In this document: one piece after another, positions 985 through 4,623 of the stretch | Layout of the letters: each line of letters begins with the position of its first letter | Numbering within the stretch: position 1 is the first letter of the stretch | NCBI GenBank assembly: GCA_021783515.1 | Contig: JAJXTV010000004.1 | Coordinates: 1-64,000 of the forward strand | From: Nitrospirota bacterium | GTDB lineage: Bacteria > Nitrospirota > Thermodesulfovibrionia > Thermodesulfovibrionales > UBA6898 | Length of the DNA: 64,000 bases | Direction: 5' to 3' | Translations under genes and position numbers: made by a program | Notes under the pieces: model-generated | What the model saw: only the letters and a program-made list of their open reading frames with translations | Databases searched by the model: none | What the model was told of the DNA's origin: nothing

Positions 985-1455
985 CTATTTGGCGGCTGAG
1001 AGTGCGAACTTGTTGAGCCAGGCAATATGGCTTTTTTCTTCCTCGATGATCCTGGAGAGCACCTCTTTTTCCTTCATGAGGTCTCTGATGGTATAAAAAT
1101 AAAGAAGGGTTTCCTTCTCAAATCCGATGGCAAATCTGACCGCTTCGGCGACAGTCTTCACCCGGTCGAGAGACGGAAGGGACTTCTCATTACCGAGGAA
1201 AAACTCGGACTCGACAATTGCCCTGAGATACTTCGAGACCTCTTCCCAATCGACCGCCCCCTCGTCCCTTACCACCTCCATAAGGCCGGAGAACGTCTCT
1301 TCATGCTGACGCTCCTTGTCGGCAAGCGTATCGCACAACTCCTTCAGTCCGCCGTCTTCCTTGAACTTATCGGCAACGGCACGGTAAAAGGCATATCCCA
1401 GTTTTTCGGTCTGTACCGCCTGTCCGACCGCCTCGCGCAAAGAAAATTTCTCCAT
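985..1455 (-). CDS. Ferritin-like (rubrerythrin-type) diiron protein
   Basis: A 156-residue, all-helical, cytosolic protein. The four-helix-bundle iron ligands are visible: Glu17, Glu48-x-x-His51, Glu113 and Glu140-x-x-His143 in two E-(x)-ExxH halves. This is the arrangement of the rubrerythrin/ferritin-like superfamily, whose members reduce peroxide or store iron. The C-terminal rubredoxin domain (two CxxC) of classical rubrerythrin is absent, so electrons would have to come from a separate partner. AAGGGGGAAGC precedes the start. The gene follows a small Cys-rich gene by 44 bp on the same strand, a probable operon. Exact substrate unknown. Confidence 0.85.
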   Translation of the reverse strand: MEKFSLREAVGQAVQTEKLGYAFYRAVADKFKEDGGLKELCDTLADKERQHEETFSGLMEVVRDEGAVDWEEVSKYLRAIVESEFFLGNEKSLPSLDRVKTVAEAVRFAIGFEKETLLYFYTIRDLMKEKEVLSRIIEEEKSHIAWLNKFALSAAK

Positions 1456-1908: not shown

Positions 1909-3111
1909 ATGGGATCCCTGCACCCACTAGGAATCATGCCCGCCGCCGCGTTACAATACGGCATGCGCTATTACCTGTCCGGCAGGTGCGTACTGAGACG
2001 GCTCGAAACGCCTTCGGTTTATGATATCGAATCGGACGAGTTGTACGAGCTGGACGAAGACGCCTTCGAGTTTCTGGCCTGTTGCGCGTCGCCCGGGGGC
2101 TGCTCCTCCGACAACGGCATCTTCATCGACTACTGCGTGCAGGAGGGCATCCTCGTCACAGGTCCCGTGGCGGTGCGGCGTGCTCCGGTCGTGAGGTCTC
2201 CCGCTCCGTCCCTGCGGTATCTCGAACTGCAGGTTACGGACCGCTGCAATCTCAGGTGCCGCCATTGCTTCATAGGAGAGAGAGGCTCGAACGAACTCTC
2301 GCCCGATGAGATAGGGGCCGTCCTTTCGGAGTTCGAGGCGATGCAGGGGCTGAGGGTCCTGATCACGGGGGGAGAACCGCTGCTTTACAGCCGCTTCGCC
2401 GAATTAAACAGGATGCTTTCGGGGTATTCCCTCCGGAAAGTCCTCTTCACAAACGGCTCGCTGCTAACCCGGAAGATCCTGAGGGAGTTGGCGGTCCACG
2501 AGGTGCAGGTGAGCATCGACGGCCTGAAGGAGGCCCATGACTCCCTGCGGGGAGAGGGTTCCTTCGAAAGCGCGCTCAATGCCGTGAGGACATGCGCCGC
2601 GGAGGGGGTCTGCGTCTCGGTCTCTACCATGGTCCATGCGAAAAATCTGGGCGACTTCGACGCCATGCAGGAACTCTTCGACGGGATCGGGGTGAAAGAC
2701 TGGACCGTGGACGTGCCCTGCGAGACGGGGAGGCTCGAACAGAACAGGGACTTTCTTGTCGACCCCGCGACAGGAGGAAGATATCTTGCCTATGGACGGG
2801 GAGAAGGCCTTCATACGAGCACCCCCGGCTTTGCCTGCGGGCTCCATCTCATGTCCGTAAGCGCGGCAGGCGGGATTTCGAAATGCACCTTCTACGCCGG
2901 CAGGGAGGCCGGCACGGTCCGCGACGGTCTGCTGCGCTGCTGGAAGAAGATCCCGCCGGTCAGGCTCGCTGCGCTGAAATGCGACTGCGCGCATCTCGAG
3001 CAGTGCCGCGGCGGCTGCAGATATCGGGCCGAACTCCTGGACGGGCCCTTCGGCAGGGACCTCTGCCGGTGCGCCCTTTACAATCATCATGCGAGTGATA
3101 TAATAGAATAA
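1909..3111 (+). CDS. Radical SAM/SPASM peptide-modifying enzyme with N-terminal RRE-like domain
   Basis: A 400-residue protein with three parts. Residues about 19-85 resemble a PqqD-like RiPP recognition element (pattern VYDIESDELYELDEDAFEFL...FIDYCVQEGIL). The radical SAM core follows, with Cys113-x3-Cys117-x2-Cys120 for the 4Fe-4S/SAM cluster and GGEPL at 154-158. The C-terminal SPASM region has cysteines 310, 326, 358, 360, 366, 370, 386 and 388 for auxiliary clusters. This layout is typical of enzymes that install thioether or C-C crosslinks in ribosomal peptides. A 20-residue Lys/Cys peptide gene follows 46 bp downstream. Start is uncertain: Met 1936 (AGGA upstream) or Met 1963 would leave the RRE intact. 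Substrate assignment is inference. Confidence 0.88.
   Translation: MGSLHPLGIMPAAALQYGMRYYLSGRCVLRRLETPSVYDIESDELYELDEDAFEFLACCASPGGCSSDNGIFIDYCVQEGILVTGPVAVRRAPVVRSPAPSLRYLELQVTDRCNLRCRHCFIGERGSNELSPDEIGAVLSEFEAMQGLRVLITGGEPLLYSRFAELNRMLSGYSLRKVLFTNGSLLTRKILRELAVHEVQVSIDGLKEAHDSLRGEGSFESALNAVRTCAAEGVCVSVSTMVHAKNLGDFDAMQELFDGIGVKDWTVDVPCETGRLEQNRDFLVDPATGGRYLAYGRGEGLHTSTPGFACGLHLMSVSAAGGISKCTFYAGREAGTVRDGLLRCWKKIPPVRLAALKCDCAHLEQCRGGCRYRAELLDGPFGRDLCRCALYNHHASDIIE
3077..3104 (+). promoter_or_regulatory. Sigma-70-type promoter inside the 3' end of the radical SAM gene
   Basis: TTTACA (3077-3082), a 16-base spacer and a perfect TATAAT (3099-3104). Initiation near 3111 would give an independent transcript of about 160 nt containing only the 20-codon peptide gene and ending at the hairpin at 3239-3272. 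Confidence 0.6.
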
Positions 3112-3157
3112 AAAAGCGCGGGAAGCTGCTATTTTCCAAGGGAAGGGAGGTGTGGCT

Positions 3158-3220
3158 ATGACGATCAAGAAGGTTTCGAAGAAGTCTGCGACCACCTGCA
3201 AATGCAAGAGCTCCTGCTAG
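3158..3220 (+). CDS. 20-residue Lys/Cys-rich peptide, putative radical SAM substrate
   Basis: The frame MTIKKVSKKSATTCKCKSSC ends in TAG and starts seven bases after a strong GGGAGGTG ribosome-binding site. The first half is basic (KKVSKK, leader-like); the second half carries three cysteines in C-x-C-x3-C with Ser/Thr neighbours (core-like). The stop directly follows the last Cys, as in many radical-SAM-modified precursors. It has its own promoter-like sequence (3077-3104) and a terminator, which argues for high expression relative to the maturase. I do not recognise a named precursor family. Its being translated is supported only by the RBS and context; an alternative is that the short transcript is a regulatory RNA. 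Confidence 0.65.
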   Translation: MTIKKVSKKSATTCKCKSSC

Positions 3221-3238
3221 GAACATACGCCTGATAAG

Positions 3239-3272
3239 AAAGGCCCTTGTCCCATCCGGGCCAAGGGCCTTT
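3239..3272. terminator. Bidirectional rho-independent terminator
   Basis: AAAGGCCCTTG (3239-3249) and CAAGGGCCTTT (3262-3272) form a perfect 11-bp stem around a 12-base loop. It lies between the converging peptide gene (ends 3220, plus) and threonine ammonia-lyase (ends 3302, minus), so it can serve both. The U-tracts are short (TTT / TTTCTT). Confidence 0.8.
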
Positions 3273-3301
3273 CTCCGTGCGGAAGCGTGAGGGTTCAGAC
3301 A

Positions 3302-4492
3302 TCAATCCCCGCTCCGCCTCCTCACCTCGAACCCCTTCTGCCTGCAGTCCGACAGAATCTCTTCGAGATGCCCCCTGCCCCTCGTCTCGACGGTGAAGAT
3401 CACTTTCGTCTTCACCACCGGAAGTCCAGGGGCAAGCCGCTCATGCACCACGTTCAGAATATTCCCCCTCCTGGCGGCGATGATTCCGGACAGCGTGTGC
3501 AGTACGCCCGGCAGATCGTCGACAACGGCCTCGAAGACCCCGATCCTCCCGCCCGACAGCAGCCCCTTATGGATGATCCGGTCGACAAGCGTAAAATCGA
3601 TATTGCCGCCGCTCACCACGAGGACGACCTTCTTGCCGGAAAATCTTTGCCGCTCTGCAAACAAGGCGGCCAGCGCCACCGACCCCGCTCCCTCCACGAC
3701 GAGCTTCTTCCTTTCAAGGAAATACAGGACCGCCTCCGCGATGCCGTCCTCCTCCACCGTGAGCATGTCATCCACGAACCGCGAGATGATCTCGAAGGTC
3801 TTCTCCCCCACCCTGCCTACGGCGATGCCGTCGGCGATAGTGGGACGGGGCGTGCATTCCTGAACGTGCCTGTCCTGAAACGAAAGGGCCGCCGAGGGCG
3901 CCGCTGTTGCCTGGACCCCGATGATCTGGGTCGCCGGAGACAGACCCTTCATCGCAACCGCAATTCCCGAAATGAGGCCCCCACCGCCGACCGGCACGAG
4001 CACGCAATCAGGGGTGGACATGTCCTCCGCAATCTCGGTCCCCACCGTCCCCTGTCCCGCAATGACCGCATCGTCGTCGAAGGCATGGATAAACTCGTAT
4101 CCCGCCTGCGAACGCGCAAAGCTCAACGCCTCGTTGAAGCTCTCTCCAAACAGCAAGACCTCCGCTCCGTATCCTTCGGTGGCCTCCTGTTTGACGATCG
4201 GAGCGGTCACCGGCATCACGATCTTTGCCGCCTTCCCCAGTCTCCCGGCAGCGAACGCCACTCCCTGCGCGTGATTGCCCATCGACGCGGCGATCACACT
4301 GCCTCCCCGCACGTCCATGATCCTATTGCAGGCCCCCCTCACCTTGAAAGAACCGGTCTTCTGAAGATTCTCCGCTTTCAGATAGACCTCCGCCCCCGTC
4401 ATCCTGCTGAATGAGCTCGAATAGATCAAGGGGGTCTTATGGACGAATGCAGCGATCCGCCCGGCGGCCCGGCGTATATCTTCCATTGCGAC
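3302..4492 (-). CDS. ilvA: Threonine ammonia-lyase with C-terminal ACT domain
   Basis: A 396-residue PLP enzyme deaminating threonine to 2-oxobutyrate, the entry to isoleucine synthesis or threonine catabolism. The Schiff-base lysine is Lys51 in KTGSFKVRGA. The cofactor phosphate loop is the PVGGGGLISG stretch, and MGNHAQGVAFAA is the usual asparagine loop. The C-terminal ~80 residues (FEAVVDDLPGVLHTLSGIIAARRGNILNV) form a single ACT domain, as in TdcB-like regulated forms rather than the two-ACT-like IlvA of E. coli. Start set at Met 4492; the frame runs open to 4573 but lacks a plausible RBS there. Divergent from the HEAT-repeat gene. Confidence 0.93.
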   Translation of the reverse strand, partial: VAMEDIRRAAGRIAAFVHKTPLIYSSSFSRMTGAEVYLKAENLQKTGSFKVRGACNRIMDVRGGSVIAASMGNHAQGVAFAAGRLGKAAKIVMPVTAPIVKQEATEGYGAEVLLFGESFNEALSFARSQAGYEFIHAFDDDAVIAGQGTVGTEIAEDMSTPDCVLVPVGGGGLISGIAVAMKGLSPATQIIGVQATAAPSAALSFQDRHVQECTPRPTIADGIAVGRVGEKTFEIISRFVDDMLTVEEDGIAEAVLYFLERKKLVVEGAGSVALAALFAERQRFSGKKVVLVVSGGNIDFTLVDRIIHKGLLSGGRIGVFEAVVDDLPGVLHTLSGIIAARRGNILNVVHERLAPGLPVVKTKVIFTVETRGRGHLEEILSDCRQKGFEVRRRSGD

Positions 4493-4623
4493 CATATGCT
4501 TTCCAATGCCTCCCCTTGCGCGAATTGCGATGGCACTATTGTACCTCCCCCCGTCGCCCGTGCCAAGCAGCATTCGCCGGCCTCTCTCTCACGCCGGCCG
4601 CCGCCGGAACTTTGAGGCAGGGA

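Follow-up and report, generated by a model that had tools for sequence, protein, structure and literature searches.

The locus described here raises the question of whether a radical SAM enzyme and the very short, cysteine-containing reading frame behind its gene constitute a maturase and its substrate, that is, a RiPP system, and what the product of such a system might do in the cell. Both genes lie in a stretch of 64,000 nucleotides (hereafter, the window) from the 3.16 Mb genome of a Nitrospirota bacterium of the order Thermodesulfovibrionales. A preliminary description, made from the sequence alone, had read the pair as a RiPP unit of an unrecognized family with three modified cysteines, and had stated that this reading would be refuted if homologous enzymes lacked a downstream cysteine peptide or if the peptide frame were not conserved at the codon level.

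The maturase gene occupies positions 1963..3111 (+) and encodes a 382 aa protein. The enzyme ORF of the preliminary description was confirmed, but its length of 400 residues had to be corrected: homologues align from residue 18-19 of the listed ORF, placing the start at Met19 (window position 1963), and the start at 1909, which is not conserved among homologues, was rejected. A TACAAT box located 5 nt before the start codon (1952..1957, +) probably serves, by inference, as the -10 element for a leaderless transcript. Many enzyme homologues carry a TATAAT-like box 6-10 nt before the ATG, without a Shine-Dalgarno sequence, and it is because of this combination that the enzyme mRNA is considered likely to be leaderless in the window and in homologues, an inference from sequence alone. 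By the same inference, leaderless transcription appears to be conserved across the enzyme homologues. On the opposite strand, a cysteine-containing 154-residue ORF (1500-1964, -) overlaps the discarded start region of the enzyme; it has no Pfam or NCBIfam match.

By sequence and predicted structure, the enzyme is an RRE-radical SAM-SPASM protein, with the RRE assigned on the basis of a model. This PqqD-like, winged-helix leader-binding domain, spanning residues 1-80 (1963..2202, +; pLDDT 88 for the domain model), contains a conserved acidic strand, DELYELD, and has no sequence match in NCBIfam. The radical SAM domain (Pfam PF04055, E 4.5e-21) carries a CxxxCxxC motif (C95, C99, C102; 2245..2268, +) that is invariant in 64 homologues. 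In the SPASM region (2830..3078, +), seven cysteines, arranged as C292-x10-G-x4-C308 and C340-x-C342-x5-C348-x3-C352-x17-C370, are effectively invariant in the alignment of 64 orthologues; the score with the SPASM model TIGR04085 falls slightly short of the cut-off (26.1 versus 27 bits), and the assignment is also backed by a structural match to the C-terminal part of anSME and CteB. The AlphaFold2 model of the enzyme (pLDDT 93) was compared with known structures using VIA-align and Foldseek, and its architecture is that of SkfB and CteB. The top VIA-align match is SuiB with the SuiA peptide (5v1t; Z 27.1 over 355 residues, model residues 2-374), followed by SkfB (Z 26.2), with anSME, CteB (Z 23.8) and ChlB close behind. 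For the isolated N-terminal domain (first 81 residues), the best Foldseek matches are the RREs of TbiB1, SuiB, LynD and MccB, with weak E-values (at least 0.05). The CxxxCxxC motif and SPASM cysteine set recognized in the preliminary description thus held, as did its PqqD-like N-terminus, the latter by structure prediction and with the reservation just given. The family was rightly left unassigned: all 84 NCBIfam family matches are weak and none comes near its cut-off, the best being WgkB (91 bits versus a cut-off of 650), and the curated cut-offs of the known maturase equivalogs (those of sactipeptides, ranthipeptides, mycofactocin and geopeptide, WgkB, NirJ and others) are not met.

The precursor peptide gene (3158..3220, +) begins 46 nt past the enzyme stop codon and encodes MTIKKVSKKSATTCKCKSSC in 20 codons, with a basic leader (residues 1-13) followed by the core CKCKSSC (residues 14-20). 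A start at GTG 3152 was rejected in favour of ATG 3158 (20 aa), since a length of exactly 20 codons is shared by almost all homologues. The gene is preceded by the Shine-Dalgarno sequence GGGAGG (3145..3150, +), and a strong Shine-Dalgarno is present in nearly all of its homologues. Its promoter, TTTACA-16-TATAAT (3077..3104, +), which matches 11 of the 12 consensus positions, is embedded in the 3' end of the enzyme gene and is the sole promoter-like site in the region, with 0.2 expected by shuffling; the same intragenic arrangement is found in many related loci. A terminator hairpin (3237..3274, +; -29 kcal/mol, z -6) follows, and the next gene past it (3302-4573) is on the opposite strand. 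The 20-codon gene, strong ribosome-binding site, internal promoter and terminator proposed earlier all held, and only the remark that the precursor is among the shortest is no more than fair, PqqA precursors being only slightly longer.

This 20-codon gene is real and strongly conserved. The C-terminal pattern CKCKxxC-stop was found in 123 of the 176 genomes of the order (120 after removal of spurious matches) and in none when reversed. Almost all of the collected peptide genes have exactly 20 codons, with 19 in the Thermodesulfovibrio-like family f10. The C-terminal Cys and Lys codons were fixed by the search, so that conservation of these amino acids, though not their synonymous variation, is partly a matter of ascertainment. 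Outside the codons that defined the search, I3, K5 and T13 are nearly fixed, with third positions free to vary, and codons 2-13, which lie outside the search pattern, have a pN of 0.26 versus a pS of 0.77, indicative of purifying selection. The test of codon-level conservation was thus passed.

So was the test of a downstream cysteine peptide beside homologous enzymes. An initial survey found this peptide immediately behind the enzyme gene in almost all near relatives, and among 107 distinct enzyme loci, 81 are followed by a TCKCKxSC peptide less than 400 nt downstream (median gap, 44 nt); where the peptide is not adjacent, it is usually found elsewhere in the same genome. Adjacency as a strict rule was rejected, given that many genomes carry solo peptides. 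Among genomes at least 90% complete, 87 contain both genes, 3 the peptide only, 8 the enzyme only and 31 neither (Fisher 4e-19). Of the 8 genomes that seem to have the enzyme alone, six encode variants that the strict pattern does not capture, for instance, CKCKNSC or CKCHSSC, and the apparent cases of an enzyme without substrate mostly resolved to variant or contig-truncated peptides. At the genus level, 61 of the 85 genera of the order have both, 22 neither, and only 1 + 1 are discordant; shuffling of peptide labels within mixed genera yielded p 5e-5, the floor of the test. These tests control for relatedness only partly, and in incomplete assemblies linked genes may be missing jointly. Two near-complete genomes, G136 and G039, have the peptide and no enzyme in the assembly. 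Genome G007, one of the three counted as peptide only, was rejected as another such case because a contig end cuts the enzyme; at that contig end (L103), two CKCK copies, each after a C-terminal fragment of the enzyme gene, form a tandem duplication. Outside the order, all 16 fetched peptide loci adjoin the enzyme, more distant enzymes are adjoined by MIIKKVTKMSAGTCKCKESC or MTITKVAKVSASVCKCKSSC, and the pair is also present in other classes of the phylum. Neither gene was found in f29 and f32, other large families of the phylum, and searches of plasmids for the enzyme and of viral contigs for the peptide pattern gave no match. Overall, the pairing is established and its interpretation as a RiPP enzyme with its 20-residue peptide is well supported, so that the earlier RiPP-unit reading survived both of its refutation tests, with modification of the cysteines being inferred only.

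Two aspects of the system, hairpins in the 5'UTR and a copper-linked branch of peptides, were beyond what the preliminary description could see. Many CKCK genes are preceded by a pair, and in some cases a trio, of small hairpins that have (A/G)NGAA pentaloops; the hairpin nearest the gene overlaps the Shine-Dalgarno sequence. Of 89 leaders, 57 have one hairpin or more and 32 have two or more, against shuffled expectations of 4.9 and 0.2, respectively. Covariation is strong, with 35 cells changed on both sides versus 9.5 in shuffles. Three pairs in each hairpin served to select the sequences; in hairpin 1, the outer pair had no part in this selection, and it is paired in 26/26 sequences, with 15 double changes. 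We consider the tandem hairpins to be a putative regulatory RNA element not represented in Rfam, a search of which with the CKCK 5'UTR produced no believable match. The copy in the window has degenerated beyond recognition. Matches of the RNA model in its genome (E 4e-5 to 2e-3), at least two of which lie inside or overlap coding sequence and none of which is the UTR in the window, were treated as chance. Tandem RNGAA hairpins located 20-70 nt upstream of the peptide ATG were seen at L095-L097, L127, L128, L047, L105 and other loci.

With a looser pattern, a second peptide type, TCKCHxSC (for example, MTIKKVTKKKGLTCKCHKSC), was identified in 31 of the 176 genomes, and in none when reversed; one of these matches (G062) looks spurious. 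The CKCH peptides (L197-L202, L233-L251) are located in copper-resistance loci, together with CopA/CopB-type ATPases and Met-rich periplasmic proteins. A P1B ATPase is encoded within 3.5 kb in 16 of 25 CKCH loci and a Met-rich ORF in 20 of 25, often directly downstream. The complete ATPases have either CPC with YN and MxxSS, or CPH with a His-rich N-terminus, and the ATPases of these loci score 587-639 versus a cut-off of 397 for the copper ATPase model TIGR01511; a multicopper oxidase adjoins one of the peptides. Judged by location, the CKCH branch is a component of copper-resistance operons. CKCH peptides are not adjacent to the enzyme, and their presence is not significantly associated with it (24 of 30 have the enzyme, p 0.13); that the same enzyme acts on them is unproven and inferred from sequence similarity. 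At CKCK loci, the type present in the window, the corresponding counts are 1 of 60 for the P1B ATPase and 4 of 60 for the Met-rich ORF, a few duplicate loci included, so that this type is not generally flanked by metal genes and a neighbouring copper ATPase, taken as a criterion, is not met. Superoxide dismutase, rubrerythrin/ferritin-like, thiol peroxidase and nitroreductase genes are found nearby in some CKCK lineages, and a TPR protein with ispE in others; conserved neighbours were rejected as a clue to CKCK function, there being no single partner across lineages. No protease or exporter is consistently found near peptide loci.

The best explanation, which we favour with moderate confidence, is a two-gene RiPP system in which the Cys-Lys core is modified and the product probably handles metal. 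The 20-residue precursor, the one element that rests on genetic evidence, would be expressed from its own promoter. Its basic half, IKKVSKK, may be held by the acidic RRE strand DELYELD, a mode suggested by a conserved acidic strand facing a conserved basic precursor half and dependent on the predicted structure. The radical SAM/SPASM enzyme would then introduce a radical-based, oxygen-independent change into CKCKSSC, with one or more of its three cysteines as the probable site. This chemistry is drawn from knowledge of the enzyme family, and both the action of the enzyme on the peptide and the identity of the changed residues, including the three modified cysteines proposed earlier, remain inferences. 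The product is envisaged as a small, nearly invariant intracellular peptide, not an exported antibiotic, which would most likely handle metal, namely, copper in the CKCH branch. We consider this role most likely because copper-resistance operons include the CKCHxSC sister peptides, and these operons are its only basis; metal binding itself is inferred, and, as metal genes do not generally flank CKCK loci, a metal role of the CKCK type is merely carried over from the CKCH branch. Speaking against the metal reading, thioether formation at the cysteine sulfurs would weaken thiolate metal binding. Removal of the leader is unexplained, since no protease or exporter is consistently nearby. The hosts are probably anaerobes, judging by what is generally known of this order. 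A bolder reading, compatible with the evidence but less likely than not, holds that this is a new RiPP class whose synthesis probably needs no oxygen, in which a Cys-Lys 20-mer becomes a binder of copper or soft metals, an anaerobic counterpart of the captophorins, with CKCK as the housekeeping form under the tandem-hairpin RNA and CKCH as the resistance-operon form.

Several other explanations have to be weighed. Short ORFs are common, but a chance small ORF is all but excluded, and indeed already refuted, by the absence of reversed matches, the pairing with the enzyme and the codon-level conservation. It remains possible that the peptide is modified and processed to a small redox cofactor like PQQ or mycofactocin, with the copper link limited to a divergent branch. 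The near-invariant peptide sequence across the order, as a rule in one chromosomal copy, the lack of a transporter or immunity gene, the solo copies unlinked to the enzyme and the presence of the mycofactocin maturase among the weak NCBIfam matches are compatible with this view; however, no dedicated protease or dehydrogenase is a conserved neighbour, and the CKCH branch is located in metal operons.

A nascent-chain sensor, that is, a cysteine uORF whose translation responds to metal and regulates the gene behind it, in the manner of the copper-responsive CruR of Bordetella, with the enzyme link being secondary, appears unlikely. CKCH peptides are often encoded just upstream of genes for a Met-rich protein and CopA, a copper uORF with a Cys motif is known (PMC9426467), and the peptide gene has a structured 5'UTR and a terminator; yet, the next gene in the window is on the opposite strand, behind the terminator, a uORF would not be expected to co-occur strictly with, and lie next to, an RRE maturase, no arrest motif is present and the cysteines are translated last. 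Least plausible among the peptide products is a sactipeptide or ranthipeptide bacteriocin: the enzyme architecture is the same as in SkfB and CteB, but immunity, exporter and protease genes are lacking, the core does not diversify, and it is highly charged, without hydrophobic acceptor residues.

The two-gene RiPP system that we favour has partial precedents. SuiB (streptide), SkfB (SKF) and CteB share with the enzyme the whole-chain fold, including the N-terminal RRE, radical SAM domain and C-terminal cluster region, but identity is ~20% or less, no NCBIfam equivalog is reached, and the precursor is here much shorter, unrelated in sequence and encoded either behind the enzyme gene or at another locus of the genome. 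The geopeptide/GeoRSP and SbtM radical SAM families of NCBIfam share a weak profile over the radical SAM and SPASM parts, but the enzyme scores only 52 to 79 bits versus cut-offs of 350 to 400. PQQ (PqqA/PqqD/PqqE) and mycofactocin likewise involve a very short precursor, an RRE, a radical SAM/SPASM enzyme and a near-invariant, non-antibiotic product; unlike in these systems, the core residues are different, no accessory gene set is present and the RRE is fused to the enzyme. The closest functional parallel in the literature searched is provided by the captophorins (bufferins, oxazolin and fontiphorin), RiPPs that have Lys-Cys or Cys-Lys precursor motifs, as here, function in copper detoxification and are built by O2-using multinuclear iron enzymes (MNIO) (PMC13097082). 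By contrast, the present enzyme is a radical SAM protein of probably anaerobic bacteria, and none of the 61 relatives searched, the window's own genome included, has an MNIO (PF05114) over the Pfam cut-off. The CKCH branch resembles CruR in having a small Cys-motif frame upstream of copper genes; CruR itself belongs to DUF2946, is longer, contains CXXC as well as the arrest motif RAPP, and lacks a maturase (PMC9426467).

The architecture is already known, but NCBIfam, Pfam and Rfam have no entry for the family, for its precursor, for the CKCH branch linked to copper or for the RNA element. Exact-string and topic searches recovered no description of the family in the open-access literature searched, the coverage of which is partial and not proof. 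The radical SAM RiPPs thereby gain an unannotated, order-wide, deeply conserved precursor-maturase pair whose precursor is so short that gene callers may overlook it and whose product may be an undescribed small metal-handling molecule. The near-invariance of the peptide, together with its sister form in copper operons, points to RiPPs as ordinary molecules of metal physiology in bacteria without MNIO chemistry, although this is only a suggestion. The system is directly testable, with one enzyme, one synthesizable 20-mer and, if family f10 corresponds to Thermodesulfovibrio, cultured hosts, and the tandem hairpins offer a small new regulatory RNA for study.

Some recurrent gene arrangements were also observed. 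Near the enzyme-peptide pair, some lineages repeatedly have genes for rubrerythrin/ferritin-like proteins, superoxide dismutase and nitroreductase (window 985-1455, -; L018, L099, L035). In several families (L095-L097, L104, L107 and others), a TPR lipoprotein gene and then ispE come immediately after the peptide gene, also where the enzyme is encoded elsewhere. Finally, solo CKCK peptides at L098, L102 and L109-L111 are found in an operon-like arrangement, after a gene for an HD-domain protein and before one for a small cytochrome c.
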